Part shown: positions 1,685 through 60,451 of the stretch, one piece after another
Numbering within the stretch: the stretch's first letter is position 1
Layout of the letters: each line of letters starts with the position of its first letter
DNA from: Helicobacter sp. 13S00401-1
GTDB taxonomy: Bacteria > Campylobacterota > Campylobacteria > Campylobacterales > Helicobacteraceae
Direction: 5' to 3'
DNA: 64,000 bases
Assembly (NCBI RefSeq): GCF_002272925.1
Contig: NZ_MLAR01000003.1
Location: forward strand, 1-64,000
The notes under the pieces: generated by a model
The model's database searches: none
The model's input: only the letters and a program-made list of their open reading frames with translations
Told to the model about the DNA's origin: nothing
Made by a program: the position numbers and the translations under genes

Positions 1685-4153
1685 TTAGATTTTCATCTTT
1701 TTAGGTTGTTTAAACACATCTACTGGGCTAGCTTTGCCTTTGTATTTTTCAATATTTACTAGGGCGGTGTTAGCACAGTTTGCATTAGCTAGTTTTGAAG
1801 TTGGTATATCAAGAGTTAGGATGTTTGGACAGCCATTTTTGCAAAGTGAGCCAATTTTCCCCGGTTTTACTGGGTCATACCAAACACCTTCACTTAGTCT
1901 AACTACTTTTCTAGAGATATCTTTAGTTACATAAGCACCTGCTAGTACTTCACCTCTTGCGTTAAATACTCTTACTAAGTCACCGTTTTTGATACCTTTT
2001 TCTTTAGCATCTTCTTCATTTATCCATATAGGTTCGCGTCCTGCTATAGCATAAACATCTCTTAACTTAGTTTGAGATAGCTGAGAGTGAAGTCTATAGC
2101 CACTGTGAGGACTTACCATGTGAAACTCTGCAGGTTTGTTTTTCATACCTAGCCACTCAGCTGGCTCAAACCATGAAGGATAAGGGCGGCAGTCATCGTA
2201 TTTAAAGCTAGCGATTTTTTCAGAGTAGATTTCTATCTTACCACTTGGTGTTCCTAGTGGATTTAAGATAGGATCTTCTATAAAGTTAGCGTACCTTACA
2301 AACTCTTCGCCTTCTTGAGATTCTTCAAACTGTACAGGCTTATTTTTCTCCCAAAACTCTTTAAACTCTGGCATAGGGATGTGTTGAGCCTTAGCTTGTT
2401 TTAAAGCGCCATTGTAAAACTCTTCTATCCAACCAAACTCATCTTTGCCATTACCAGTGAACTCATCATAAACGCCAAACTCTTTAGCTAGTGAGCTAAA
2501 TACATCATAGTCATCTACGCTTTCAAACTGTCTTTTTACAAGGGCTTTCATAGGAGTTATCATGATATTTGAAAAGTCCCCTACCATAGAGATGTCATTT
2601 CTTTCATACTCTGTAGTAACTGGCATAACTATATCTGCATATCTTGCAGTTGGGGTCCAGTAGGCTTCATTAACAACTACAGTATGAGGCTTTCTCCAAG
2701 CTTTCAAGTTGTTGTTAGTGTTTTGGTGATGAACTATAGGATTCCCCCCTACCCAGTAAATCATATCTATATCTGGATAAGTTACTTTGTGACCATTAGC
2801 ATCAATAGTCTTGCCCGGGTTTAAAAGAGCATCGGCAATACGCGCTACTGGGAAGGCTACTTTTGCTGAGTGGCCTGCTGTATTCATACCGCCAATAACT
2901 GCTGACTTTCTAGTAGGAACACCAGAGTTTGCATAGTGGTAAGCTAGACCAAAGCCTCCACCTGGAAGACCGATTTGCCCTATCATAGAAGCTAGAGTTA
3001 CCAGCATCCAGTGAGGTTGCTCACCGTGATGTGCTCTCTGCATAGACCAACCACTCATAAGCATAGTTCTATTTTCATAGAAAGTTTTAGCTAGATCTTT
3101 TATAACATCTACTTTTATACCTGAGATCTTAGATGCCCAAGCAGCATCTTTTACTACGCCATCAGTTTTACCTAACATGTAAGGTAAAAACTTATCAAAG
3201 CCTTCAGTATAGTTAGCTATAAAGTCTTTGTTGTACTTACCTGTTGTATACATAGTGTGCATGATACCAAGCATCAAAGGAACATCTGAGTGAGGAACTG
3301 GTGCTATCCACTCTGCATCTAGCAGCTTACAAGTTTCATTTCTAACTGGGTCTATGAAGATTATCTTTTTACCACTATTTTTAAGTTGTGCTAAGAAGTC
3401 TGCACCTAAGCCATCACTTACTGCAAAAGAGATTCTAAGAGTTAAAAGCGGGTTAGATCCCCATATAACTACTACTTTAGAATCACTTAAAACTAAAGGC
3501 CATACAGTTTGTTGCTCATAAACTTCTATGCTTCCTACAACATAAGGCATGATAACTTGAGATGCTCCAGTTGAGTAGTCTCCTGTTATACCGGAAAAAC
3601 CACCAGTCATCCCTAGGAATCTTTGAAGTAAAGCCCTGCAACTATGGACGTTACCACTGCTTTTCCAGCCATAACTTCCAGCAAAGATCCCTTCACTTCC
3701 TTTTTCTTTTCTAGTGCGTCTTATAGCATCAGCTATTAGCTTGATAGCTTTGTCATAGCTTACTCTAACCCACTCATCTCCGCCTCTAAGCTCAGGCTTT
3801 GGTGAGAGAGGATTTTCAAGATAAGATTTTCTTACCATAGGGTATCTAACTCTTGATTCTGTATAAACCATGTCTCCTATGTATTTTTGCATAGGGTTTT
3901 CCATCTTTCTTTCAACGCCAGATTCAGACTTAACTATCTTTCCGTCTTTAATGGTAACTTTTAACACGCCCCAGTGAGCACCTGTTATAACTTCACCATT
4001 TTGGACTAGCTCGCTAGTGAACTTTTTGCCTGCTACATTTGCCATCTTTTCTTTAGCACTTAAAGTGCCTCCAAAAAGACCTTGAGCCATAGGCACCATG
4101 GCAAATAATGCGCTTGCTTTTAAGACCGTACGTCTGCTGATTTTTTCTGTCAT
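1685..4153 (-). CDS. Molybdopterin N-/S-oxide reductase (TorA/BisC family), Tat-exported
   Basis: An 822-residue periplasmic enzyme of the DMSO reductase family, expected to reduce TMAO, DMSO or related oxides with electrons from a c-type cytochrome. The N-terminus has a twin-arginine signal (S-R-R-T-V-L-K at residues 6-12, then a hydrophobic stretch). The YGWKSSG segment near 161 and GDYSTGASQ near 191 fit the TorA/BisC branch, in which a Ser (here Ser194) is the molybdenum ligand. No N-terminal Fe-S cysteine motif is visible, as expected for this branch. The upstream gene on the same strand is a monohaem cytochrome c, the arrangement of Campylobacter jejuni Cj0264c/Cj0265c. The physiological substrate cannot be read from sequence. 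Confidence 0.88.
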   Translation of the reverse strand: MTEKISRRTVLKASALFAMVPMAQGLFGGTLSAKEKMANVAGKKFTSELVQNGEVITGAHWGVLKVTIKDGKIVKSESGVERKMENPMQKYIGDMVYTESRVRYPMVRKSYLENPLSPKPELRGGDEWVRVSYDKAIKLIADAIRRTRKEKGSEGIFAGSYGWKSSGNVHSCRALLQRFLGMTGGFSGITGDYSTGASQVIMPYVVGSIEVYEQQTVWPLVLSDSKVVVIWGSNPLLTLRISFAVSDGLGADFLAQLKNSGKKIIFIDPVRNETCKLLDAEWIAPVPHSDVPLMLGIMHTMYTTGKYNKDFIANYTEGFDKFLPYMLGKTDGVVKDAAWASKISGIKVDVIKDLAKTFYENRTMLMSGWSMQRAHHGEQPHWMLVTLASMIGQIGLPGGGFGLAYHYANSGVPTRKSAVIGGMNTAGHSAKVAFPVARIADALLNPGKTIDANGHKVTYPDIDMIYWVGGNPIVHHQNTNNNLKAWRKPHTVVVNEAYWTPTARYADIVMPVTTEYERNDISMVGDFSNIMITPMKALVKRQFESVDDYDVFSSLAKEFGVYDEFTGNGKDEFGWIEEFYNGALKQAKAQHIPMPEFKEFWEKNKPVQFEESQEGEEFVRYANFIEDPILNPLGTPSGKIEIYSEKIASFKYDDCRPYPSWFEPAEWLGMKNKPAEFHMVSPHSGYRLHSQLSQTKLRDVYAIAGREPIWINEEDAKEKGIKNGDLVRVFNARGEVLAGAYVTKDISRKVVRLSEGVWYDPVKPGKIGSLCKNGCPNILTLDIPTSKLANANCANTALVNIEKYKGKASPVDVFKQPKKMKI

Positions 4154-4285: not shown

Positions 4286-4882
4286 TTATTTTGTGTTAGT
4301 TCCTGGCATATCGCTAGCATTTTTTTGAAGGTATTGAACTAAAAGGTATTTGTCTTCTTTTGGGATACCAGTTCTTGGGAACATAGAATCTACAACACCT
4401 GGCCATTGATTAGCATTAAACTCTTTTGTAGCGTGTAAGCCGTGGCAAATTGAGCAGTTTTCACCATAAAGTGCTTTTGCTTTAGAGTATAAAGACTGAA
4501 CATCTTTAGAGAAGTTGCCACTATCAGTGTAAAGTTGAACTTCTACTTTATACCATTTTTTACCGCTTTCTTTATCATTAATCTCTTTTACTTTTTTAAC
4601 TTGGATATTTGCACTTTTTGCAAGACCAGCAACTAAGATTCTTCTATTGATTGCATAATAGATAGCATTATCTACACCCTCTTGAGAGTAACCTTCTATC
4701 TGTATAAGGTCTTTTTTACCTTCTTGCTTTATCATCTTAACTGCTGAAGTTGGGAGTAATCTACCAACTACTTTGTCGCTTCCTTTTTGATAAAGAGACT
4801 TAACTGTTGTAGGATACATAACATTATCCGCCGCAAACATCAGGCCTACTAAAGCTAAAAACACTAGGACTATTTTCTTCAT
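4286..4882 (-). CDS. Monohaem c-type cytochrome, electron donor to the adjacent reductase
   Basis: A 198-residue protein with a Sec signal peptide (MKKIVLVFLALVGLMFAA) and one haem-binding motif, C-S-I-C-H at 143-147. Met residues near the C-terminus could be the distal ligand. The ~120 residues before the haem domain are not a cytochrome fold I recognise, as in the C. jejuni Cj0265c-type protein. It lies 132 bp upstream of the N/S-oxide reductase on the same strand, so it most likely passes electrons from the quinol/cytochrome pool to it in the periplasm. Confidence 0.82.
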   Translation of the reverse strand: MKKIVLVFLALVGLMFAADNVMYPTTVKSLYQKGSDKVVGRLLPTSAVKMIKQEGKKDLIQIEGYSQEGVDNAIYYAINRRILVAGLAKSANIQVKKVKEINDKESGKKWYKVEVQLYTDSGNFSKDVQSLYSKAKALYGENCSICHGLHATKEFNANQWPGVVDSMFPRTGIPKEDKYLLVQYLQKNASDMPGTNTK

Positions 4883-5198: not shown

Positions 5199-6215
5199 CT
5201 AAAAGTTTTTAGTTAAATCCATGCCTTTATACATCATGGCAACTTCTTCACCATAACCATTAAACATCTTAGTAGGTATGCGCTCATTAAAGAAGCTATC
5301 ACCTATATAATTTTCAGTAGCTTGAGACCATCTAGGATGTGGCACATTTGGATTAACATTAGCATAGAATCCATACTCATCACTAGCTAAACTAACCCAC
5401 ATAGTACTAGGAAGTTTATCTACAAAAGAGATTCTAACTATGCTTTTTATAGACTTAAAGCCATACTTCCAAGGCACTATCAATCTTAATGGAGCACCAT
5501 TTTGAGGCAAGAGAGCTTTACCATAAAGTCCTATAGCCATTAAAGTTAAGTCATTATAAGCTTCATCTAGTCTTAAGCCTTCAGTATAAGGAAACTTTAT
5601 CCCACCAGCTATACCTGGGGACTTTACAGCTGGCATATCAGGGTCTACTATAGTTTCAAAGTGAACATACTTTGCACTACTTAAAGGCTTAACTACAGCT
5701 AGCAAGTCTTTAAGTCTAAAACCCATATAAGGCAGGTTCATACTCCATGCTTCAACACATCTAAAGTGATAGTTTCTTTCAACTAAAGGCATCTTAGCAA
5801 CTATGGTTTCTAGGCTAAGTTTTACTGGCTTTTCTACTAAGCCATCTATAACAACACTCCAAGGATCAAGTTTAGCTTTACTAAAAACTTCTTTAGCAGC
5901 AGCACTTGAAGAAGGATCTTCTTTTTGCACTCCAAACTCATAGTAGTTATTATAAGTTTCAGCCTTTCTTTCAGGGGTTAAGGAAGGTGGAGTTAGTGCT
6001 GAGACTGGGAAGTGTGGGTCTTTTGAATATATAAACTTTCTTTTTATAAAGTCGCTTTTTTCAGCAGTAGATGCTGCATATAAGGAGCTAGTTAGTGGTA
6101 CTAGCAAACCACCAACTGCTAAGGCTTTCATTATGCTTTCTCGTCTCTCATAGTTTTCTATACTTGTTAGATCGCTATCTTTAATATCATAGCTTTTTGG
6201 TCTTTTTATCAACAT
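5199..6215 (-). CDS. msrP: MsrP, periplasmic methionine-sulfoxide reductase catalytic subunit
   Basis: A 338-residue member of the YedY/MsrP family of molybdopterin enzymes that repair oxidised methionines in periplasmic proteins. A twin-arginine segment (Y-E-R-R-E-S-I-M-K-A at 22-31) precedes a hydrophobic stretch. The molybdenum-ligand cysteine is Cys153 in FRCVEAWSM. The start is supported by an AAAGGA ribosome site upstream of the ATG. The usual membrane partner MsrQ (a haem-binding YedZ protein) is not next to it or elsewhere in this window. It shares its strand with an N/S-oxide reductase and a glycosidase, all Tat-exported. Confidence 0.9.
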   Translation of the reverse strand: MLIKRPKSYDIKDSDLTSIENYERRESIMKALAVGGLLVPLTSSLYAASTAEKSDFIKRKFIYSKDPHFPVSALTPPSLTPERKAETYNNYYEFGVQKEDPSSSAAAKEVFSKAKLDPWSVVIDGLVEKPVKLSLETIVAKMPLVERNYHFRCVEAWSMNLPYMGFRLKDLLAVVKPLSSAKYVHFETIVDPDMPAVKSPGIAGGIKFPYTEGLRLDEAYNDLTLMAIGLYGKALLPQNGAPLRLIVPWKYGFKSIKSIVRISFVDKLPSTMWVSLASDEYGFYANVNPNVPHPRWSQATENYIGDSFFNERIPTKMFNGYGEEVAMMYKGMDLTKNF

Positions 6216-6423: not shown

Positions 6424-8055
6424 TCATATATCTTTAAAACTTATGAAACTTATAGCATAAGGAAGTATAGAGATTCTGCCTGCTTTTAAAGGGCTGCCTT
6501 TTAGCTCTAGAAGCTTGTCATCTTTAAGTCCTAAAGGCACACCATTAAGGCTAACTTGACCATTTTGCATAGTTTTATAAGGGTCATTTGAGTGATAAGG
6601 ACTAGGGGCTAGGACATAAATCTCACCAGCTTTTTTAAAATCAAAAGTATGAATCCTTTCAGTTGGGTTTATAATCATCATCACCCTGCCTTGTGTAGTG
6701 CCTTTAAGACTATGAGCATAGATTCTAAGGCTAGGCTCTTTTATATCTACTTCATAAACTTTTTCTCCCATAAGCTTTTGCCAAAGAAGGGCAGCATAGT
6801 AGTTTGGACGTGGCTCATAAGTCTCATAGTCAAGCAGTCCATACTCACTAGCACACAAAGTATTATGCATAACTACCTTTACTCCAGCCTTTGCTAGGCT
6901 TCCTAGTTGATTTAAGAATCTAAAAGTATCATAAAAAGTACTAGCCCATGGATTCCCACCACAAGCACTATCAGCTGTCTCTGTGACCCAAAGAGGGGCT
7001 TTTGGCATAAACTCATCCCTAAGCTTGCTATAAAATCTAGCCACATGCTCACTCTTATCTAGCCAAGTAAAACTTAAGGCGTCTTTTAAAGACGTGCCTC
7101 CTTCTTTACCCTCTCCTACACAACGCATCGAAGCTGCACCATAGTAGTGATAAGAAAAAGCATCAAACTTAGGATTTGGCTTAGCACTTAATAAATCTTT
7201 GCTACTAAGCTCACTCATATTAGCAGGAAGTGCGCCACCCTCACCCACACAGCCTGGCCCTAAAGTTATCATCCTAGGAAGATTAGCTTTAACAAACTTA
7301 GTAAATACTGCTATATCATTAGCAAAAGATTGTGCATTATAGCCCTTAGGAGCGCCACTTACGCTTAATAAATTAGGCTCGTTAAAAAACTCAGCTGCTG
7401 CTATCTTACCACCTAGCTTTTTAGTGTAGTTTGCTATCTTGATAGCTTCTTTAGGCGTCCAGATTCCATCTTTATCCCTAGTACCAGAGCTTATAGCAAA
7501 AGAAGTAACTAGCTTAGAGTTAGTTGCTTTAATAAAGTCTATAACTCCTTTCCACTCCTTTCTTGTTAGAACGTTTTCAAAACCTTTTGGAGGGCTTTTT
7601 AGTTTAGGTTTATCATCATCTTGAAAATAGATTGTATTAGCCCAGGTTCCACTAACTCTTACGTAAGTTTTCCCTAGGCTACTAGCTAGCATGCGCAACT
7701 TTTCATTTTGCAAATCTAGGGGCTTTAAGGCCTTATAAAGATTAGAGTTATCATGACTTAAGTTTGTGCTTGTGATCTTAGAATCTAGATCTTTATAAGG
7801 TGCCCAAAACTTCCCGCCAACTATCTCTACCATCTCTATGTTATAAGAAAGATATCTTTTATCCACACTTGTTAGATACTTAAAAGTTGCAGGATCTATG
7901 CTAAAAGCTTTTTTAGAATCCCAACCCTTAAAACTTTCTTCTAAAGTATTATCACTAGCTAAAAGAGAGCTTCCTAAAAAAGTCTTTGCTAAAGGGGCAA
8001 AGGCTAGCAGGGTAGAAGCCTTTAAAACACCTCGTCTATTAATCTTTTCTTTCAT
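6424..8055 (-). CDS. Tat-exported GH79 glycoside hydrolase, heparanase-like
   Basis: A 543-residue protein starting at the ATG at 8055 (AAGGAG site five bases upstream); an in-frame ATG at 8106 would place 17 residues before the Tat signal and is unlikely. The twin-arginine signal is I-N-R-R-G-V-L-K. The body matches the heparanase pattern over its whole length: acid/base Glu226 in FFNEPN, an HYYG motif near 303, nucleophile Glu359 in [12 protein letters not shown], then the conserved region ending in Pro-x-Tyr-Tyr near 417, and a C-terminal beta domain with L-N-G near 503. GH79 enzymes cut beta-glucuronides in heparan sulfate, hyaluronan or arabinogalactan. The substrate here is unknown, but host glycosaminoglycan is the obvious candidate. 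Confidence 0.8.
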
Positions 8056-8165
8056 GCTTACTCCTTTTAAAAGACATAATTTATAAAGCCCATTGTAAAA
8101 ACACATTCACTAACTTTAGTAAAATAAGCCAAAACTTACAAGGCAACTTTAAAGGATGTAAAAAA

Positions 8166-35748: not shown

Positions 35749-37194
35749 TTATTTCTTGCAATTGCAAGCATTTAGTTTATTAAAAAAAGATTCTAGTTTT
35801 TGAGTATCTTTTATACCTTTTGCTTTTTCTAAGGAAGAGCAAAGATCTATTAGCTTTGGGCTTAGACTTAAAAAAGATTCTAAGTTGTCTTCACTCACCC
35901 CACCAGCTATAGCTAAGTTATCAAAACCTTCTATAGAATCTAAATCAGCCTCTAGTCCTTCACCATGGCTACTATCTAGTAGATTTAAAAGACTGTCTTT
36001 AGAATCTACATTTTTAACTGCCTTATAGTAGCAAAAAGTAGCCTCTTTTAAATCTAAACCAAAATATAATCCTCCCTCTAAGTCTTCAACCCCATGAAGC
36101 TGCAAACAATCAATTAGATTCTTTTTTATTAACTCTAGCCCTAGTTTTAGGCTTTCTTTATCAGCTACTACACCGATTTTAAGTGCATCTTTTACATTTT
36201 CATAAGCATTAATCTCTTCTAAAAACTTTGCTTCTACAAAGCGAGGACTACTTTTAACTAGCACAAAGCCTAATAAATGGGCATGTTTTGAAGCACTTAG
36301 TGCAAAGCTAACTTCATTTATACCACATACTTTTATAAGTGGAGGCTTTTTGGTTACAAACATATTAACCAGCTTGTAAAAAAAATCCCTCTGAGACCCA
36401 GCCTTAAAGCTTGCTATCAAGTTTATAAGCCTAGAAAAAAGCATCTGTCTTCTATTAGGCGCATTTAAGGCTTGCATAAGATAGCTTCCAACCAAAAAGC
36501 CTTCAAACCTAACACTTCCTACTATAAAAGCATCATAACTATTATCTATCCCACTTTCAAATATCACTGGAATCTCACTAGGGACTTTTTGGCGAAGTAT
36601 GAAGGCATTAAGCTTATTAATCTTTAATGTATCTAGGTTTCTAGAGTTTATACCTAAGATTCCATAGTCTATATCAAGCTTTAAGGCAAGCTGTAATTCT
36701 TTTTCATCATGAACTTCAACTAAAGGAGTAAGGTTAAATTTAAGACAGGTATTAAATAAAAGCTCTAATTTTTTAAAGTCATCCATAAAAAGATTAACGA
36801 TTAAAAGCACCATATCAGCACCAGCAAGATAACTAACTTCTACTTCTTCAGGCTCTAGTATAAAGTCTTTTCTTAAAACGCAGATCTCTGGTAAGGCCTT
36901 TTTTACTTCCATTAAGTCATTTAAACTTCCACCAAAATAGTCTTCTTCACAAAGCACTGAGATGGCATTTGCCCCACAGTCCTTATAGGCTTCAGCTAAA
37001 AGTGCGGGATGTTTTATATCTCTTAAGCTCCCTAAAGATGGGGACTTTCTTTTTACTTCGGCTATAAAAAGGGGAAAGGTTGGTTTTATGATAGGATGGG
37101 TGCGACTATAAGGTATGACATGACCTAGTGTAAAGCCTTTTTTGGCTAACCTTTGCCTTTTTGCATTGCATATATCTAATAAAACTTTAGTCAT
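35749..37194 (-). CDS. trpC: Fused indole-3-glycerol phosphate synthase / phosphoribosylanthranilate isomerase
   Basis: A 481-residue protein for two consecutive steps of tryptophan synthesis. The TrpC half (1 to ~255) has FIAEVKRKSPSLG near 42, VLRKDFILEPEEV and GINSRNL. The TrpF half (from ~290) has PLIKVCGINE and LQLHGVEDLEGG. The same fusion occurs in H. pylori and in enterobacteria. No other trp gene is present in the window, so trpCF is detached from a trp operon here. It overlaps the next gene upstream by 4 bp. Confidence 0.93.
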   Translation of the reverse strand: MTKVLLDICNAKRQRLAKKGFTLGHVIPYSRTHPIIKPTFPLFIAEVKRKSPSLGSLRDIKHPALLAEAYKDCGANAISVLCEEDYFGGSLNDLMEVKKALPEICVLRKDFILEPEEVEVSYLAGADMVLLIVNLFMDDFKKLELLFNTCLKFNLTPLVEVHDEKELQLALKLDIDYGILGINSRNLDTLKINKLNAFILRQKVPSEIPVIFESGIDNSYDAFIVGSVRFEGFLVGSYLMQALNAPNRRQMLFSRLINLIASFKAGSQRDFFYKLVNMFVTKKPPLIKVCGINEVSFALSASKHAHLLGFVLVKSSPRFVEAKFLEEINAYENVKDALKIGVVADKESLKLGLELIKKNLIDCLQLHGVEDLEGGLYFGLDLKEATFCYYKAVKNVDSKDSLLNLLDSSHGEGLEADLDSIEGFDNLAIAGGVSEDNLESFLSLSPKLIDLCSSLEKAKGIKDTQKLESFFNKLNACNCKK

Positions 37195-47249: not shown

Positions 47250-47921
47250 CTTCAAGAGAAAAAACCATAAAGCCACTCTACCTGCAGCTCCAAAAATTGC
47301 TCTTATTACTTCTAATGTAGAAACCCTAGTAAGATAGTAAATGACTTAGCTAATGAAGGTAACTACACAGGCTCTATGCAAAAAGAATTTGAAGCAGTTA
47401 GTGCTACTACTGCTAACTCATTACAATTAATGCGCAATGCCTTTGCAAGAGTAGGTAATACACTAGGCTCTACCTTACTACCTATAATAAGTGGTGTATC
47501 TAAGCTAATAGCTAGCATGGTTAGTGGTTTTGGTGCATTGCTTGAAAGTTCTAGTTTTGTAAGATATGGACTTATAGCTCTAGGTGGGGCATTTGCATTA
47601 CTTAAGATAAAAGCACTAGCAGCAAGATTAGGAAGTTTTGTTTTAACTAGCGCCTTACATCCTTTAAGATTTACCCTATTAAAGATGCTTCCTGCTTCAT
47701 ATATAGCTAGTATAGGAGATAAACTAGGACTTAGTACTACAGTAGAGCTAAGTAAAACTAAGGCCCCGCCAAAAGCAGCTGAACTACAAAACTTAGCAAT
47801 CAGTAAACCTGCTACAACTACTTCTACTAACTCTAGTGTTACTAATGCTAATACTATAACTATAGTTACAGGAGCTAATCCTAAAGAAGTAGTAAGAGCT
47901 GTAGCTACTTATAGTGATTAA
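47250..47921 (+). pseudogene. Remnant of a phage tail tape-measure protein
   Basis: The frame from 47316 to the stop at 47921 reads KIVNDLANEGNYTGSMQKEF and then TTANSLQLMRNAFARVGNTL, a hydrophobic helix near the middle (YGLIALGGAFALL) and a Thr/Asn-rich tail. This resembles the C-terminal part of tape-measure proteins. Just upstream, in another frame (up to the stop near 47337), lies ATLPAAPKIALITSNVETLV, which looks like the preceding part of the same protein, so a frameshift or small deletion has broken the gene. No other phage structural gene is intact here. Confidence 0.6.
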
Positions 47922-52663: not shown

Positions 52664-52701
52664 AAAAAATACCACATAATGCTCATTGTGTGGTGGTCAA
52701 T
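52664..52701 (+). repeat. Palindromic site 2, right boundary of the possible invertible segment
   Basis: Core ACATAATGCTCATTGTGT, with 10 of 11 matching positions in the inner half sites around the centre CT. The outer arm is less symmetric than in site 1. It ends 21 bp upstream of the tagD-like start codon, leaving just room for the ribosome site. Confidence 0.7.
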
Positions 52702-52722
52702 ATTTGCTATTTTGGAGAAGAA

Positions 52723-53142
52723 ATGAAATTTGTAAGGGTTATCACCTATGGAACCTTTGATGTCCTTCACTATGGACATATACGGTTACTAAAAAGGGCA
52801 AGAGCATTGGGTGACTACTTAATAGTTGCGCTTTCAACTGATGAGTTTAATAAAGTAAAGCACAAAGAATCATTTTATACCTTTGAGCAAAGAAAGATGA
52901 TCTTAGAAGGTTGTAGATATGTAGATTTAGTGGTCCCAGAAAAAAGCTGGAGGCAAAAACAAAACGATATCAAAACTTACAAGGCAGATATTTTTGTAAT
53001 GGGTGATGACTGGGAAGGAGAATTTGATGCTTTAAAAAATATCTGCAAAGTTATCTACATCAAAAGAACTCCTGAAGTCTCTTCAACTACCACCAAAGAC
53101 TTTTTAAAGTCCACTAAAAAAGGGAAAAAATGCAAAAAATAA
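52723..53142 (+). CDS. Glycerol-3-phosphate cytidylyltransferase-like enzyme (TagD type)
   Basis: 139 residues from the ATG at 52723 (GGAGAAGAA site); a GTG at 52690 lies inside palindromic site 2 and is rejected. ITYGTFDVLHYGHIRLL with His16-x-x-His19 is the nucleotidyltransferase signature, and RTPEVSSTT near 115 corresponds to the R-T-x-G-I-S-T-T CTP site of TagD (Gly is Val here). It should make CDP-glycerol from CTP and glycerol 3-phosphate. It is the first gene of a seven-gene overlapping operon ending in glycan transferases. Confidence 0.82.
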   Translation: MKFVRVITYGTFDVLHYGHIRLLKRARALGDYLIVALSTDEFNKVKHKESFYTFEQRKMILEGCRYVDLVVPEKSWRQKQNDIKTYKADIFVMGDDWEGEFDALKNICKVIYIKRTPEVSSTTTKDFLKSTKKGKKCKK

Positions 53143-54638
53143 TCATCCAAGCTGGTGGTAAAGGCACAAGACTAGAAGGTCTTACTAGAAACAAACCTAA
53201 GTGCTTAGTTCCTATTGATAATCTTCCTCTTATCTTTTATACATTTAAAAAGTTCCCTGATGCTTTATTTTTAATAATAGCTGACTACAAGATAGATGTT
53301 TTAGAAAGATATTTAAGCGTTTTTGCAAAAGACTATAAACATAAGATTATAAAAGCTAGTGAAAAAGGCACAGCTAGTGGCATAAAAGATGCCCTTACAC
53401 ACTTTGAAGAAGATGAACAAGTAAGCATCATCTGGTGTGATTTAATACTTCCTACTAGCTTTAAACTTCCTTCTACTAAAAATAACTTTATAGGTATAGC
53501 TAAAGACTTTGAGTGTAGATGGTCTTTTGAAGATTCTAAGTTTATAAAAAAAGCAAGTAGTGAACATGGTGTGGCTGGTCTTTTTATATTTACTTCTAAA
53601 AGCTTACTAAAAGATATACCAGAAAGTGGAGCACTAGTGCCCTACCTTAGTACTACTAACATAAAGTTTAAAGAGTTGCCACTTAATGGCGCTAAAGAGA
53701 TAGGAACCATGATATCTTATATGGATAACAACAAACAAGCTAGTAGAAGATGGAGGCCATTTAATTCCTTAAAGTTTAAAGGAAACCTAGTTATAAAAGA
53801 AGGCATAAATGATCAAGGCAAAAAGATAGCTAAAAATGAAGTAGCTTGGTATAAATTTGTTAAAAAACATAGCTTTGAATATATACCAGAGATTTATAAG
53901 TATGAGCCTTTAGAGATGAGATTAATACAAGGGCAAAATATCTATGAGTATGACTGTTTAACTAAAACTCAAAAAAAAGAGATTCTAACTAAGATTATAA
54001 AAGCCCTAGATTGCCTACATAACCTAGTACCACCTATAAAAGTTAGCTTAGAAGATGTTAAGACTAACTATATAACTAAGACTTTTGAAAGACTAGAGAC
54101 TATAAAAGACTTAGTGCCTTTTGCAAGTAAAGAGTTTATAAGGATTAATCATAGATATTACAAAAATATCTTTTATGATAAAGATAAGTTAGAAAAGCTA
54201 TTAGATTCTATGAGTCCTATGGAGTTTAGGCTAATCCATGGAGACTGCACTTTTTCAAATATGATGTTTGATACTTTTAATATGCAAGTTACTCTATTAG
54301 ACCCAAGAGGCTACTTTGGGGAAACTCTACTTTATGGAGATGTAGACTATGACTGGGCTAAGCTTTACTACTCTTTAAAAGGTAACTATGATCAGTTTAA
54401 TCTTAAAAAGTTCACCCTTGATATAAAGCAAAGTGATATAGAACTAAACATCAAACCTAATAACTGGGAGGATATGGAAGAGTTTTTCTTTGATAGTATC
54501 CCTCATGTAAATAAGCAAAAGATTAAAACCCTCCATTCCATCATCTGGCTTTCTTTAACTACTTATGCTTGGGAGGACTATGACAGTATCTGTGGTGCTT
54601 TTTATAATGGCGTCTTGCAAGCAGGAGAGTTTCTATGA
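53130..54638 (+). CDS. Nucleotidyltransferase-kinase fusion for an activated glycan precursor
   Basis: 502 residues in two domains. The N-terminal ~220 are a sugar-nucleotide/LicC-type pyrophosphorylase (QAGGKGTRLEGLTRNKPKCL, with Lys and Asp in the catalytic loop). The C-terminal ~280 are an aminoglycoside/choline-kinase-like fold (IHGDCTFSNMM near 370, catalytic Asp, then LLDPRG with the metal-binding Asp). A choline or sugar kinase plus cytidylyl- or uridylyl-transferase would phosphorylate and then activate one small molecule. Campylobacter capsule loci have similar proteins. The substrate is unknown. Confidence 0.75.
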   Translation: MQKIIIQAGGKGTRLEGLTRNKPKCLVPIDNLPLIFYTFKKFPDALFLIIADYKIDVLERYLSVFAKDYKHKIIKASEKGTASGIKDALTHFEEDEQVSIIWCDLILPTSFKLPSTKNNFIGIAKDFECRWSFEDSKFIKKASSEHGVAGLFIFTSKSLLKDIPESGALVPYLSTTNIKFKELPLNGAKEIGTMISYMDNNKQASRRWRPFNSLKFKGNLVIKEGINDQGKKIAKNEVAWYKFVKKHSFEYIPEIYKYEPLEMRLIQGQNIYEYDCLTKTQKKEILTKIIKALDCLHNLVPPIKVSLEDVKTNYITKTFERLETIKDLVPFASKEFIRINHRYYKNIFYDKDKLEKLLDSMSPMEFRLIHGDCTFSNMMFDTFNMQVTLLDPRGYFGETLLYGDVDYDWAKLYYSLKGNYDQFNLKKFTLDIKQSDIELNIKPNNWEDMEEFFFDSIPHVNKQKIKTLHSIIWLSLTTYAWEDYDSICGAFYNGVLQAGEFL

Positions 54639-56032
54639 AGGACTTAAAAGCTAGTAATATAGAATCTAAAAACTTAAAATCTACTACCTACTTAACTCTT
54701 TCTTCTTTACCTAAAACTTGGATACTAGATATAGATGGAACCTTACTTAAACATAATGGCTATAAGACTAAAGAAGGGGATAGTTTACTACCTGGTGTAA
54801 AAGAGTTTTTTTCTAAGCTTAGCCCTAGTGATAAGATAGTTCTTTTAACAGCTAGAGAAGAAAGGTACGCACAAGACTTAAAAGAGTTTTTAAAAGTTAG
54901 TGATATAAGGTATGACTACTTACTTCACTCTATGCCCCTTGGAGAAAGAATCTTAGTTAATGACGCTAAGCCTAGTGGTTTAAAGTGTGCTTATGCGATT
55001 AATGTGATTAGAGATAAGGGACTAGATATAAAGATAGATGACTTAGAATCTAATACAGATTCTAACCTTGATCTAAACTCAGCTCTAAAAACTATAGACC
55101 TAGAGATAGAAGGCTTAAAGCTACTAAAAGAAAGTTTACAAGCTAGCACTAAAGATCTCACCTCACCTTTAACTAAGGCCTTAGATCTACTAGAAAACAC
55201 TAAAGGTAGGGTAGTTTTTACTGGTATAGGAAAGTCTGGGATCATAGCTAAAAAGATAGTCTCTTCCCTTGCATCAACTGGAACGCCCTCTTTTTTCATA
55301 CACCCAAGTGAGGCAAGCCATGGTGATCTTGGCATGCTAAAAGATGAAGACATCATAGTGGCTATGTCTAATAGCGGGGAATCTCAAGAGTTAATAGACA
55401 TACTAGAGTATGCTAAAACCTTTAAACACCACTTAATAGCTATCACCAAAAACAAAGATAGTTCACTAGGAAAAGCAGCTGATGTAGTCTTAAGTCTACC
55501 TAGTAGTAAAGAAGCCTGCCCTTTAAACCTAGCGCCTACTTCTTCAACCACTGCTGCTTTAGTCTTAGGGGATATACTAACTGTAAGACTTATGGAAAGA
55601 AAGAGAATTGATAGTTTTGAGTTTAACAAAAGACATCCTGGAGGCAAGCTAGGCTTTGCATTTTTAAAAGTCTCTTCCATCATGCACACAAAAGATTCCT
55701 TACCCTTGCTTCCACAAAGTGCTATTTTTAAAGACGCCCTTTTAGAGATGACACTAAAGCGTCTTGGTTGTGTAGGATTTATAGATACTAAAGGTTGCTT
55801 AGTTGGAATCTTAACTGATGGAGACTTGCGAAGGATACTAAATAGAGATAGTGTAGATAAAGATATAACAGAGCTTATGACTAAAGACCCCATAACTCTA
55901 GATAAAGATACTCTAGTTGCTAAGGCGCTAGAACTTATGGAGACCAAACACATAAGCAGTGCTTTTATACTAGAAGATAAAAAGCCTATAGGTGTTGTGC
56001 ATATCTATGACTGCTTAAAGTTTCAAGCATAA
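54635..56032 (+). CDS. HAD phosphatase fused to KpsF/KdsD-type arabinose-5-phosphate isomerase
   Basis: 465 residues in three parts. Residues 28-150 form a small HAD domain (WILDIDGTLL with Asp32 and Asp34; LLTAREERY). Residues ~165-320 are a SIS sugar-isomerase domain (GIGKSGIIAKKIVSSLASTG, SNSGESQELI). Two CBS repeats follow (TDGDLRR near 395). The last two parts are the KdsD/KpsF arrangement, which turns ribulose 5-phosphate into arabinose 5-phosphate for Kdo. The fused phosphatase suggests a variant product such as a dephosphorylated or activated pentose. It overlaps the preceding gene by 4 bp. Confidence 0.8.
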   Translation: MKDLKASNIESKNLKSTTYLTLSSLPKTWILDIDGTLLKHNGYKTKEGDSLLPGVKEFFSKLSPSDKIVLLTAREERYAQDLKEFLKVSDIRYDYLLHSMPLGERILVNDAKPSGLKCAYAINVIRDKGLDIKIDDLESNTDSNLDLNSALKTIDLEIEGLKLLKESLQASTKDLTSPLTKALDLLENTKGRVVFTGIGKSGIIAKKIVSSLASTGTPSFFIHPSEASHGDLGMLKDEDIIVAMSNSGESQELIDILEYAKTFKHHLIAITKNKDSSLGKAADVVLSLPSSKEACPLNLAPTSSTTAALVLGDILTVRLMERKRIDSFEFNKRHPGGKLGFAFLKVSSIMHTKDSLPLLPQSAIFKDALLEMTLKRLGCVGFIDTKGCLVGILTDGDLRRILNRDSVDKDITELMTKDPITLDKDTLVAKALELMETKHISSAFILEDKKPIGVVHIYDCLKFQA

Positions 56033-56045
56033 AGTGTAAATAAAT

Positions 56046-57263
56046 ATGAGTTTAAAACAAAAACTAAAAAGCTTTATGCTTCAAAATAAAGACTATATAA
56101 AACCGCTTTGCCATAACTTTATACTTAACTGGCACATAGATATAGGAGAAGATGACGCTTTGATAAAAACTTTTAAGATTTTTGGTATATCTATCTTTAG
56201 GCGTGTGATAAGCAAAAACTACATAAAAGACTATAGGGGAGCTAAACTAGTTAAAACCTTAGCCTTAGGTGAAGACTATAAAAAGAGCATGCTTGAAGAA
56301 TATGCCAGGCTTATAAAAAATGCTAGTTTAGATATAAAAAACTATAAGGCCATTTTTATCTTTAACTCTAATAGTGGGGAGATAAACCTCTTTTTAACCT
56401 ATGTCTTAAAGCCTCTTTTAAAGCGTTATAACCTAGATGGCTATAAAGACTTACTTTTTATAGCAACCAAAGACTACCACCTAGACATCATGGAATCTAT
56501 CTTCCCTCAAGTCCCCCGTCTACTAGCAAAAAACATAAAGCTTTTTTATGAAACGCTAAAGTATATAAACAAACAAGCATTTTTTACCATCTTCACTAGT
56601 GTGTATTTCTTAAAGGTTGAAGATAATATAGCCTTTAGTTCTACTTTTAAAACCCACTACTTTAAGCTTATGCTAAAAGAGCTAGACATAGATAAAAAAG
56701 ACTTGGTATTTCAAGGCTTTCTTCCACCACAAAACATAGAATCTAGCATGCTAGCTAAGATCAAAAAAACTAAGTTAAATCTAAAAAACTTTATCATCCT
56801 TGCCCCAGAGGCTATCTCTTGTAAACCTTATAAAAAAAGATTCTGGAAAAAGCTTATAAAAAGCTTGCAGGCTGCAGGCATAGATATCTTTGTAAATGCT
56901 GTAGAAAAAAGCACGCACTTTAAAGGAGTAAACTATAAACACTGCAAACTAGGCTTTGATGAAGTCTTTATGCTAGCTAAGCTTAGTTTAGGAGTAGTTT
57001 CTTTAAGAAGTGGTCTAGTAGAAAACTTGCTTCAAGCAAACGTGCCACTTTTTGCCCTCTACACTCGCTTTAAACACAAACCACCTTTTGGGATACTAGA
57101 TTCTAAAAAGATCTTGGCTGGCTTTAGTCTTAGAGTCCTTCCAAACATAAACCAAACCCTACTTTATGAGTTTGATATGGAAGAAGTCGTAGAAAACAAA
57201 TTAATAGAGCTAATAGTCTACATAGCAAGTCACAAAAAAGAAAAACTACAATGGCAGTCTTAA
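56046..57263 (+). CDS. GT-B-like glycosyltransferase, heptosyltransferase-related, copy 1
   Basis: 405 residues; the C-terminal half has the GT9-like pattern of a beta strand (FIILAPEA near 257), a helix ending KLIKSLQAAGIDIFVNA, and a donor-site segment LSLGVVSLRSGLVENLLQANVPLFALYT near 320. The N-terminal ~100 residues include a short motif (KTFKIFGISIFRR) also seen in the next protein. I recognise the fold by pattern only. It probably adds a sugar or polyol to the operon's glycan. Confidence 0.55.
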   Translation: MSLKQKLKSFMLQNKDYIKPLCHNFILNWHIDIGEDDALIKTFKIFGISIFRRVISKNYIKDYRGAKLVKTLALGEDYKKSMLEEYARLIKNASLDIKNYKAIFIFNSNSGEINLFLTYVLKPLLKRYNLDGYKDLLFIATKDYHLDIMESIFPQVPRLLAKNIKLFYETLKYINKQAFFTIFTSVYFLKVEDNIAFSSTFKTHYFKLMLKELDIDKKDLVFQGFLPPQNIESSMLAKIKKTKLNLKNFIILAPEAISCKPYKKRFWKKLIKSLQAAGIDIFVNAVEKSTHFKGVNYKHCKLGFDEVFMLAKLSLGVVSLRSGLVENLLQANVPLFALYTRFKHKPPFGILDSKKILAGFSLRVLPNINQTLLYEFDMEEVVENKLIELIVYIASHKKEKLQWQS

Positions 57264-58369
57264 AAAAAGTAAGTACTAAAACTACTACAAGCATCAAGCT
57301 TTTTGGCAAAACATTAGTTAGGAAAGAAAGACTACTCTCATCTACTTCACTTTATGTTTTAAATCTACTTATCTATAAAAAGCGTCTTAAACCTTATATC
57401 CATACATCCTATCTGCTAGGTGTAAAGATAGCTAGTAAGCAAATAGATTTAACTTCCTTGCTATCAAAACAAGCAAAAAATAAAGAGTTTATCTACATCT
57501 GCTTTCATAGTGGGGATTTTTACTACCTAGCAGTAACTATAAAACAAAACTTTGCTAAGTATAAAGATGTACTTATCTTAAGTAAGTTTGCCTACTTAAA
57601 GCAAGTTTTAGAGATGCTTGACTTTGAAGAAGCATGGATAGAATCTAACTTTTTAGTAGTAAAAGAGTTTTACCCCTCCCTTGCTTTGTGGTGCAAAAGT
57701 TCTAACACGCTAAAAAGTAAGGCTAGCTTGGATCATGAAAAAGGCTGGATGATTAATGAAAAAGTAGAGATCAAAGATAGAAACTATCCTCCTTTTTCAG
57801 ATTCTTTAGCTAAGTTTTTAGGTAAAAGTAGTTTTGATATTAGATTTAACTATGCATTTAAACTAACTCCTAGCCTATCAAGTAAAAAAGATATAAAAAC
57901 TAAGGCTATCTTACTTATCCCCCAAAGTCAGTTTAATGGAGACTTAAGCCTAGCTTTTTGTAGTGTCTTATTAGAAGGTCTTAAAGCACTAGGTTTTCAT
58001 GTATTTATAAACACAAAAAGCAAACTTTATGACTCCTTACTTGATGCTAGCACTACAAAGATCTTTTTAAACTATAAAGATACTTATGAGCTAGGCTTAA
58101 CCTGCAAGGCAGTTATAGCTATTAGATGTGGGCTGGTTGATTGCTTACAAAGTCTAGCTTTTAATAAAGTCTTATTTTTTATCATCTATAACCAAAAAAG
58201 CTATCCACACTATAAGTTTTTTAAAAACTTTTATGAGTGGTTTAAAGACGCCTATAGTCTTAATCATATCAATCAAACCACTATTTTTAATGAGTACTTT
58301 TATGAAAAAGACTACATACACCTTTTAAAAGACATACTAGAAAAACTAAAGGAGGATGGCGATGTATGA
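57251..58369 (+). CDS. GT-B-like glycosyltransferase, copy 2
   Basis: 372 residues and distantly related to the preceding protein: the N-terminal short motif (TSIKLFGKTLVRKE), a strand ILLIPQSQFNGDLSLA near 213, a helix ending ALGFHVFINT and CKAVIAIRCGLVDCLQSLAFN near 275. It overlaps its neighbours by 13 and 8 bp. The pair probably arose by ancient duplication and may add two successive residues. No donor can be assigned. Confidence 0.5.
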   Translation: MAVLKKVSTKTTTSIKLFGKTLVRKERLLSSTSLYVLNLLIYKKRLKPYIHTSYLLGVKIASKQIDLTSLLSKQAKNKEFIYICFHSGDFYYLAVTIKQNFAKYKDVLILSKFAYLKQVLEMLDFEEAWIESNFLVVKEFYPSLALWCKSSNTLKSKASLDHEKGWMINEKVEIKDRNYPPFSDSLAKFLGKSSFDIRFNYAFKLTPSLSSKKDIKTKAILLIPQSQFNGDLSLAFCSVLLEGLKALGFHVFINTKSKLYDSLLDASTTKIFLNYKDTYELGLTCKAVIAIRCGLVDCLQSLAFNKVLFFIIYNQKSYPHYKFFKNFYEWFKDAYSLNHINQTTIFNEYFYEKDYIHLLKDILEKLKEDGDV

Positions 58370-59345
58370 ACTATATAATTTTTTATTAAAAGTTTTTTCA
58401 AAACTATTTATACCTAGCATCAACGCAAGGTTAAGGTTTAGAAAAAGATTCTACAAAGTAACTCCACTTGAACGCTTAAAAAAAGACTTAGACATCAAAC
58501 TAGCTGCAACTTTTAGTGCCTTTTTTGATATAAGAGATATAAGGCCTGCAACTGGCAACTTACGCAAGGTTCAGCTTGGACTAAGTGCTTTGCTAAGTGA
58601 GTTTCACGAAGTATGCATGGATAATGACATCATATACTGGCTAGATTATGGCACCTTGCTTGGGGCTTATAGACATAAGGGCTTTATACCTTGGGATGAT
58701 GATATAGATGTAGGTATGATGCGAAGTGAGTTTTTAAAACTACAAAAAGCCTTACTTAACCACCCTCACTTTAAACTAACTGAATGGTTGCACATAGGAG
58801 GAGAAAGCATACAATGCAGAGTGGCAAAGTTTTGCTTTAAAAGAGATGACATCCACCTTTTTATAGATATCTTCCCCTATGACTTTTGTAACTGTTCTAA
58901 CTTAGCTAGCTTTTATGAAGGCTACAAACAAGATAAAGAAGCACTTAGGGCTAGTTTAAGAGGACTAAAACTACACTATAACTTTTGTGAGTGTAAGGAT
59001 GAAAAAGATTTAAAAGTTATTAATGAGACTTTTAAAAAGTATGGCGATAAGTATAGTTCATCTCTAACTTTAAAAGACGGCAGTGCGATAATTTATGGTA
59101 TAGAAAATCCAGTCAATGAAGCTACTAGAATTTTCACCAAACACACCATCTTCCCCCTCCAAACTTTAAACTTTGAAGGTTTTACTTATCTTGTGCCAAA
59201 TGATATAGATAAGTATCTAAGCGTAAACTTTGGCAACTACATGGCCTTACCTACTGACATAGGTATAGCTAAACACCCTCCTTATACAGAATCTGAACTA
59301 GAGATCATAGAAGAAATACTACACGCCGCCAAGGAGAGTAAATGA
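58362..59345 (+). CDS. LicD-family phosphotransferase
   Basis: About 327 residues from the ATG at 58362, which has GGAGG six bases upstream; the ATG at 58356 is too close to that site. The LicD signature is YWLDYGTLLGAYRHKGFIPW followed by DDDIDVG near 94-120. LicD proteins move phosphocholine, phosphoglycerol or phosphoribitol from a CDP donor to a glycan. With a TagD-type enzyme five genes upstream, CDP-glycerol is the likely donor here. Confidence 0.85.
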   Translation: MYELYNFLLKVFSKLFIPSINARLRFRKRFYKVTPLERLKKDLDIKLAATFSAFFDIRDIRPATGNLRKVQLGLSALLSEFHEVCMDNDIIYWLDYGTLLGAYRHKGFIPWDDDIDVGMMRSEFLKLQKALLNHPHFKLTEWLHIGGESIQCRVAKFCFKRDDIHLFIDIFPYDFCNCSNLASFYEGYKQDKEALRASLRGLKLHYNFCECKDEKDLKVINETFKKYGDKYSSSLTLKDGSAIIYGIENPVNEATRIFTKHTIFPLQTLNFEGFTYLVPNDIDKYLSVNFGNYMALPTDIGIAKHPPYTESELEIIEEILHAAKESK

Positions 59346-60451
59346 AAAAAGCTATAAAGGGTATATTTTGGGTGCTAGTTTATTTAGGCTTAGCCTTAAG
59401 AGTTTTTAAAAAAGCCCGTATAAATATAGCAAGGTGTCACGCCTTTCAAGTTAGGTTTAAAACTATCCCACTTGTACAGTATGAAAGATATGATAATGGC
59501 GATGTGATAAGGTCTTTTCCTTTTAGAAAAAAGCATGATAAAGATAAAGTAGTGTTTTATCTAAAATTTCATAATGATGTAAAAGGCCATGCTTTTTACT
59601 GCCTAGGTCACTGGATAAATATAGTTAATAAATATAAAGGTGACTACTATATAGTCTGTGATAAGCCTAGAGTAGAGCTTGATATCTTAAGAAAAGTAGT
59701 GTTTTATGATGGCAATATAAAGTTTATAACTAGTGATAAGTCTATACCAAAATATATTATCGAGAATGTAGCGACATCTAGATGGATAGGAGCTACTTAT
59801 GGACATCTGACAACTTTTTTACATGCTAAAAAGCATGGTATAAAAAGATTCTGGAATATAGATGCTGATGATACATCTTTTATGGAGTTGCCTTTAGTAG
59901 TGGCTAAGTCTTTAAAGAAGGTTGCAGACTATGCTAACAAGCATGATATAAGTTTGTTTTCACTAGATATGCATAGAACTAACCTAAAAGGCAAGCACTG
60001 GTCTTATGGGGTAACTTATGTGCGTAAGTATGATAAGTTTTTAAAACTTGTATATGAAAACAAAAGCATAGCATGGAGAAATAAGTACAAGCTTTATGAT
60101 GACCACTTTAATCTAGACTGGTTTACAACCTACCTAAGAGATAAAAAGGCTTTAAGTATAGAAACCTTCACTATAAATAATCTCTATTTTATGCACTGGG
60201 GGATGTCTCATATATTTAGAATCTTTCCCTACTTTATGTACGTAGTAAGAGATGGAATCTTAACCTACCCTATATTGCTAAAAGTATTTAATAATAAAAA
60301 ATATGGAGAAGTAAAGGTTTATAAAGATTGCATCAACTTAGATACAGGCATAAAAGAAAAAGACAGTCTGTGCTATATAAACAATCTCATAGCTATCATC
60401 CCACTTATACTAGAAGAAAGGATGAAGCATAAGACTAAAAGTGCTAAATAA
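59342..60451 (+). CDS. Putative GT-A glycosyltransferase, last gene of the glycan operon
   Basis: 369 residues. An N-terminal hydrophobic segment (about 6-18) may anchor it at the membrane. RFWNIDADDT near 169 carries an Asp-x-Asp-Asp that could bind the metal and nucleotide-sugar, and HWSYGVTYVRK and DDHFNLDWF further on look like an acceptor region. I do not recognise a specific family. It overlaps the LicD gene by 4 bp, so it belongs to the same operon. Confidence 0.5.
   Translation: MKKAIKGIFWVLVYLGLALRVFKKARINIARCHAFQVRFKTIPLVQYERYDNGDVIRSFPFRKKHDKDKVVFYLKFHNDVKGHAFYCLGHWINIVNKYKGDYYIVCDKPRVELDILRKVVFYDGNIKFITSDKSIPKYIIENVATSRWIGATYGHLTTFLHAKKHGIKRFWNIDADDTSFMELPLVVAKSLKKVADYANKHDISLFSLDMHRTNLKGKHWSYGVTYVRKYDKFLKLVYENKSIAWRNKYKLYDDHFNLDWFTTYLRDKKALSIETFTINNLYFMHWGMSHIFRIFPYFMYVVRDGILTYPILLKVFNNKKYGEVKVYKDCINLDTGIKEKDSLCYINNLIAIIPLILEERMKHKTKSAK

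Follow-up and report, generated by a model that had tools for sequence, protein, structure and literature searches.

The window, by which we mean the whole 64,000-nucleotide stretch of Helicobacter sp. 13S00401-1 DNA analyzed here, belongs to a draft genome of 1.84 Mb in 59 contigs and carries on its minus strand a gene for a 543-residue GH79 protein (6424..8055; starting with Met at 8055 and ending with the stop at 6424, as shown by the open reading frame and its translation). An alternative in-frame ATG lies upstream at 8106 and would add 17 residues, and a plus-strand frame across 6424-8055 is ruled out by 34 stops. The genes that follow on the same strand code for the methionine-sulfoxide reductase catalytic subunit MsrP, immediately downstream (5199..6215; NCBIfam NF003767, 406.5 bits, cut-off 207), the C-terminal part of a TorC-like c-type cytochrome (4286..4882; TIGR02162, 122.3 bits, below the cut-off of 478.2) and, three genes downstream, a TorA/BisC-type S/N-oxide reductase (1685..4153; TIGR00509, 1078.3 bits, cut-off 1017.55), with a Tat leader similar to the one on the GH79 protein. 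Promoter and terminator scans gave promoter-like sites at chance level and were uninformative on operon structure. In the sister species a gene for an isochorismatase-like hydrolase with a Tat leader lies downstream of torA (L028:4085-4915), and the corresponding place in the window is taken by an outer-membrane-protein-like open reading frame on the opposite strand (90-1259). Elsewhere in the window, inspection by eye picked out an apparent surface polysaccharide gene cluster (52690-60451) with cytidylyltransferase-like (52690-53142) and LicD-like (58356-59345) genes, an apparent fusion of a HAD-type phosphatase and a sugar-phosphate isomerase with CBS repeats (54635-56032), an apparent TrpC-TrpF fusion protein (35749-37194), and a short open reading frame (47376-47921) that is similar to a segment of a phage tail tape-measure protein and may be left from a prophage.

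The protein is matched by the Pfam GH79 N-terminal domain PF03662 with 38.7 bits (8e-10; curated cut-off 23.1), and a sequence search of the PDB hit both human heparanase and leech hyaluronidase with E of about 2e-16 to 3e-16, values that place the relationship far beyond chance. A profile built from 22 sequences matched heparanase (1e-39), leech hyaluronidase (2e-34), BpHPSE (5e-8) and AcGH79 (3e-5). The AlphaFold model (mean pLDDT 84.4, pTM 0.86) displays the TIM barrel and C-terminal beta domain of solved GH79 structures; a fold search with it ranked human proheparanase and leech hyaluronidase at the top, followed by other GH79 enzymes including AcGH79 and BpHPSE, and its 33 best matches were GH79 entries throughout (E 9e-33 to 2e-20). 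Based on the agreement of the Pfam match, the PDB and profile searches, the model and its fold matches we consider the family assignment firm, and we are highly confident that the gene encodes a GH79 beta-glucuronidase. The placement in GH79, rather than in another glycoside hydrolase family, thus bears out the initial annotation, which had described the product as a heparanase-like GH79 enzyme; we regard the protein as a new member of a known family and treat its designation as a heparanase as hypothetical.

Residue conservation was counted over an alignment of 22 sequences, with heparanase as the reference for numbering. The NEPN motif (residues 225-228; 7372..7383, minus strand) is kept in 22/22 and contains the acid/base Glu226, with Asn225 and Glu226 aligned to heparanase Asn224 and Glu225, while the nucleophile Glu359 (codon 6979..6981, minus strand), likewise in all 22, aligns with heparanase Glu343 and sits inside [12 protein letters not shown]. 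The claim that both catalytic glutamates occupy heparanase contexts is upheld by these alignments, as is that of a His-Tyr-Tyr motif, found at residues 303-305 (7141..7149, minus strand), whose ends correspond to His296 and Tyr298 (His303 and Tyr305, 22/22). The core of the glucuronate site as a whole (Asn225, Glu226, His303, Tyr305, Glu359, Gly366 and Tyr405) is retained in every sequence. Its members thus include counterparts, in 22/22, of heparanase Asn224, Gly350, Tyr391 and both catalytic glutamates, a set reported to be absolutely conserved across several animal heparanases, BpHPSE and AcGH79 (PMC9500389). Sequence and model together support the presence of the GH79 fold, both catalytic glutamates and the predicted core of a glucuronate (-1) pocket.

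Glu74 (codon 7834..7836, minus strand), invariant in the 22 sequences, closes strand 69-74 in the model, and matching it to heparanase residue 62 draws on the N-terminal sequence of heparanase. It is likely the counterpart of that residue, which is Asp in the human enzyme and Glu in BpHPSE and AcGH79 (PMC9500389). An N-terminal alignment query aimed at AcGH79 matched nothing beyond heparanase and the enzyme of the leech. Strand 1 is followed by a long loop (residues 75-119; 7699..7833, minus strand) with an invariant GGxFWxPY motif in the alignment. This loop is presumably about 28 residues longer than its heparanase equivalent, a figure that draws partly on the heparanase numbering, and it may close the pocket. 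A second loop (residues 136-164) spans 28 residues from Gly136 to Thr164, with ends matched by eye, against pocket-closing loops of 40 residues in the exo-acting AcGH79 and 24 in the endo-acting BpHPSE (PMC9500389). We infer a pocket shaped for terminal glucuronate.

The contacts beyond the glucuronate site tell a different story. Heparan contacts of human heparanase include Gln270, Asn64, Gly389, Lys159, Arg272 and Arg303, and its Gln270-Lys280 region is of major importance in heparan binding (PMC6892829). In the bacterial sequences Gln270 is replaced by Glu (Glu272) and Gly389 by Ser (Ser403), both in 22/22, and the Helicobacter protein further has Gly274 for Arg272 and Ser233 for Lys231, such that the heparan contacts at the -2 and +1 sites, these four among them, are not reproduced. 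The counterpart of heparin-binding site 2 (residues 272-286; 7198..7242, minus strand) is mostly devoid of basic residues, reading [15 protein letters not shown] with a single one at its end, where heparanase has QPRRKTAKMLK. Arg303 has no confident alignment partner, with an invariant Arg311 nearby, and across the subfamily Gly349 is replaced by Cys (20/22) and Gln383 by Asn (22/22). The main motifs named in the initial annotation are present, but its statement that the protein follows animal heparanase closely goes too far, given 27% identity over 329 residues and differing contacts outside the glucuronate site; the heparan sulfate or hyaluronan substrate proposed with it finds no support, the heparan contacts being changed throughout the bacterial subfamily. 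The mature protein is basic (pI 9.1), which offers no argument against the binding of an acidic chain.

Residues 1-36 (7948..8055, minus strand), disordered and of low confidence in the model, form a leader of the TorA/BisC type with a twin-arginine motif, [14 protein letters not shown], and without a lipobox. It is identical to the TorA leader at 16/30 positions (z 16); the leaders of the two tortoise Helicobacter copies score z 9-16 when compared with nine leaders of TorA/BisC type from these genomes, and 0-9 when compared with other Tat leaders. The Pfam TAT_signal model gives it 15.1 bits, under the cut-off of 22.7, and the torA leader of the same genome likewise falls below at 18.1. The RR motif and the strong likeness to TorA/BisC leaders agree with the twin-arginine signal noticed at the outset, and export of the protein to the periplasm by the Tat route is very probable on these sequence features; the lack of a lipobox predicts a soluble periplasmic enzyme, a location which would favor small substrates able to pass the outer membrane. 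GH79 relatives with readable starts appeared by eye to have Sec-like or lipoprotein-like leaders, and the Helicobacter enzyme probably acquired its TorA/BisC-type leader once the gene had arrived. At the DNA level, a comparison of the leader with torA over a longer stretch scored 57 against a shuffled maximum of 38, the shuffles being simple ones that keep neither dinucleotides nor coding bias. We dropped a DNA-level trace of copying from torA, as a comparison over 105 bases does not favor any one donor, and the TorA-leader proposal consequently rests on protein likeness. Judged by leaders and open-frame lengths, Tat molybdoenzymes of the TorA/BisC type number at least four in the genome of the window (G000; L051, L054, L057 and L059) and about seven in the sister genome (G001; L052, L058, L061, L064, L066 and two more places).

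A GH79 match was detected in 3/121 Helicobacteraceae genomes, and among 399 sampled Campylobacterales genomes, a sample holding only part of the family's members, the window's own was the only one above the cut-off. The sole other genome examined of the window's genus, apparently that of Helicobacter sp. 11S02629-2, carries a 76% identical copy within a matching gene neighborhood. The third carrier (G110) belongs to another Helicobacteraceae genus, in which 1/5 genomes has the gene, and its copy lies in an unrelated locus and, by eye, has a Sec-type leader. In trees subject to long branches and differing composition, the tortoise Helicobacter copies group with Dyadobacter (support 100/99) and the third copy with the gene of the Salmonella plasmid pCFSAN017963_01 (100/100), to which it is 72% identical. 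Sequence comparison supports a horizontal gain by the Helicobacter lineage of tortoises, with Dyadobacter on the same branch. Trees, leaders and loci speak against a close shared ancestry of the three Helicobacteraceae copies, and the simplest reading is probably that of two separate acquisitions in the family. This suggests that Helicobacter lineages gained a glucuronidase at least twice, once with a leader of the respiratory-enzyme type. No phage record matched the gene, and we rejected a phage origin; we likewise set aside the idea that the gene of the Salmonella plasmid has spread through E. coli, as it had no match among the E. coli genomes. The plasmid, which is conjugative and comes from Salmonella enterica sv. 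Minnesota isolated from mango, carries its copy at L040:8896-10476 under the annotation hypothetical, surrounded by genes for recombinases, for a Tn3-family transposase and of group II introns. Near the copy of the third carrier, genes resembling Cas2, Cas1 and Cas9 were seen by eye (L027:11094-16447).

We then considered the loci of the relatives. A tblastn scan of genome contigs yielded 21 GH79 loci, of which those other than the Helicobacter one are distributed over Dyadobacter, Sphingomonas, Sphingobium, Novosphingobium, other Pseudomonadota, Rhodothermota and Acidobacteriota with 38-47% identity in segments, and the closest relatives, from Dyadobacter, sphingomonads, Rhodothermota, Acidobacteria and two plasmids, reach 40-49% across nearly the whole protein. 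In sphingomonads the neighbors of the gene encode a mandelate-racemase-family dehydratase and also a PfkB kinase, and at one locus (L016) genes for UxaC and for an MFS transporter are close by as well. Plasmid pNL2 of N. aromaticivorans carries, in this order, a mannitol dehydrogenase gene, uxaC, a GntR regulator gene, manD, the GH79 gene and a sugar kinase gene; among the papers searched, none treated ManD of Novosphingobium aromaticivorans in connection with glucuronate. Given this position inside glucuronate-catabolism operons, the sphingomonad enzyme probably supplies glucuronic acid for growth. In a single case, a Pseudomonas luteola plasmid, the gene comes after aromatic-catabolism genes, a context compatible with aromatic glucuronides. 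The neighbors of one Rhodothermota relative are a TIM-barrel sugar isomerase-like protein (below the cut-off) and an FGGY sugar kinase, and the scanned neighbors in Dyadobacter (L003), Acidobacteria (L007) and Sphingomonas (L004) gave no hint of glucuronate or aromatics. We found no characterized member of this bacterial GH79 subfamily, and the analysis points to it as an apparently unassayed group tied to sphingomonad glucuronate operons. A literature search on Helicobacter in connection with heparanase and GH79 gave a single review, whose subject is heparan sulfate proteoglycans.

Helicobacter lineages are regarded as largely asaccharolytic. UxaC was not found in the window's genome, the sister genome or the third carrier, and in the same three genomes there was no mandelate-racemase-family dehydratase or KDPG aldolase above the cut-off and no GH2 C-terminal domain; control genomes gave matches in each of these searches and in that for sulfatases. 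With the searched families absent, the released glucuronic acid is probably not used by the usual routes. Searches for a sulfatase gave four matches in the third carrier and none in the two tortoise-lineage genomes, which leaves the tortoise lineage without the usual partner enzymes for the breakdown of sulfated glycosaminoglycans. Both tortoise-lineage genomes have a fucose permease above its NCBIfam cut-off, consistent with the fucose loci reported in both strains (PMC6247508). The host of strain 13S00401-1 was a Central Asian tortoise and that of 11S02629-2 a spur-thighed tortoise (PMC5566214). The Helicobacter of chelonians have their nearest relatives among the enterohepatic species; herbivorous reptiles, tortoises especially, depend on fermentation in the hindgut and mostly show no apparent disease while carrying such bacteria, with septicemia in a pancake tortoise reported for one Helicobacter (PMC6530492). 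In light of that case host contact is possible; nothing links the GH79 gene to disease.

Bringing these strands together, we propose, on balance and with only modest confidence, that the protein is a retaining periplasmic beta-D-glucuronidase acting on small glucuronides and oligosaccharides; we lean about as slightly toward an enzyme that works chiefly in exo mode, on glucuronides that are small or stand at chain ends. Carried into the periplasm by its TorA/BisC-type twin-arginine leader, the enzyme would act mainly at the termini of small beta-glucuronides or of short oligosaccharides able to enter that compartment, candidates being plant phenolic glucuronides, glucuronate-capped plant oligosaccharides and host conjugates; Glu226 would protonate the leaving group and Glu359 attack, after which water would free glucuronic acid. 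As the cell lacks the searched glucuronate-breakdown families, its gain would probably be the freed aglycone, the leftover oligosaccharide or the uncapping itself rather than the eating of glucuronic acid. Several points weigh against this proposal: the second loop is intermediate in length between those of the exo and endo bacterial enzymes, the closest solved structures by both sequence and fold are the endo-acting heparanase and leech hyaluronidase, and a cell that lacks glucuronate catabolism has no obvious gain from the enzyme. Were the enzyme active on conjugates, it would represent a GH79 rather than a GH2 source of beta-glucuronidase in the gut of a herbivorous vertebrate.

Those same closest structures, together with the retained catalytic residues and the residence of the organism in an animal gut, are what would recommend an endo-beta-glucuronidase directed at host glycosaminoglycans, either heparan sulfate or hyaluronan. 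We judge this distinctly unlikely in view of the replacement of Lys231, Gln270, Arg272 and Gly389, the loss of most basic residues from heparin-binding site 2 and the absence of a sulfatase from both tortoise-lineage genomes; the missing heparan-binding residues make small plant or gut compounds a more likely substrate than host tissue. The host-directed role raised by the initial annotation is further weakened by the nearest relatives, mainly environmental bacteria and several of them with the gene in glucuronate operons, by a predicted periplasmic location without lipobox that does not favor long glycosaminoglycan chains, and by the association of the lineage with herbivorous reptiles mostly free of apparent disease (PMC6530492). 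A version in which the enzyme, with its respiratory-molybdoenzyme-type leader, cleaves glycosaminoglycans of the reptile host, or fragments of these, in the gut through contacts other than those of animal heparanase appears very improbable; if true, it would give a Helicobacter lineage a host-matrix activity. Some GH79 enzymes are said, to go by the title of a 2008 study by Konishi et al. cited in PMC9500389, to remove glucuronate from arabinogalactan-protein, and the enzyme might comparably debranch this or other plant glycans in the tortoise gut by removing glucuronate or 4-O-methyl-glucuronate caps. This is rather unlikely and not separable here from the small-glucuronide proposal, with which it overlaps: it draws on the herbivorous hosts (PMC6530492), the fucose permease and the Rhodothermota relative beside its isomerase-like protein and FGGY kinase, and it is weakened by the absence of GH2, the plant-glycan enzyme family searched, with no other such enzyme found. 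A role in trimming glycans of the cell's own envelope or capsule accords with the predicted location of the protein and with the surface polysaccharide cluster in the same window, but that cluster lies about 45 kb off and unlinked and the relatives appear catabolic, making this reading highly improbable. We thus retain the periplasmic, mainly exo-acting glucuronidase as the best explanation.

Set against the characterized enzymes, the Helicobacter protein has in common with human heparanase (HPSE; PDB 5la4, 5e8m) the fold, the acid/base and nucleophile glutamates and counterparts of His296, Tyr298, Gly350 and Tyr391, but departs from it in the changes Gln270->Glu, Arg272->Gly, Lys231->Ser, Gly349->Cys, Gln383->Asn and Gly389->Ser, in its bacterial export leader and in mostly missing the activation linker, with 50 residues between Gly136 and Phe186 against 90 in the proenzyme by the published numbering. 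Leech hyaluronidase (PDB 7eyo), the second-best fold match, is 21% identical in the structural alignment and has an RVxGTxAN segment similar to RVSGTWAN. The exo-acting beta-glucuronidase AcGH79 of Acidobacterium capsulatum (PDB 3vny) presents the same fold and, as we infer, the same Glu at the heparanase-62 position, but its sequence similarity is weak (profile E 3e-5) and its pocket loop longer, at 40 residues versus 28. The endo-acting BpHPSE of Burkholderia pseudomallei (PDB 5bwi, 7pr9) likewise shares the fold and the catalytic region (profile E 5e-8), yet only 15% identity in the structural alignment. The GH79 proteins encoded in Dyadobacter, sphingomonads, Rhodothermota and Acidobacteriota and on the two plasmids differ, where their starts could be read, in their Sec or lipoprotein leaders and, in the sphingomonads, in operons with glucuronate-catabolism families absent from Helicobacter, but they share with the Helicobacter enzyme the invariant motifs, GGxFWxPY included.
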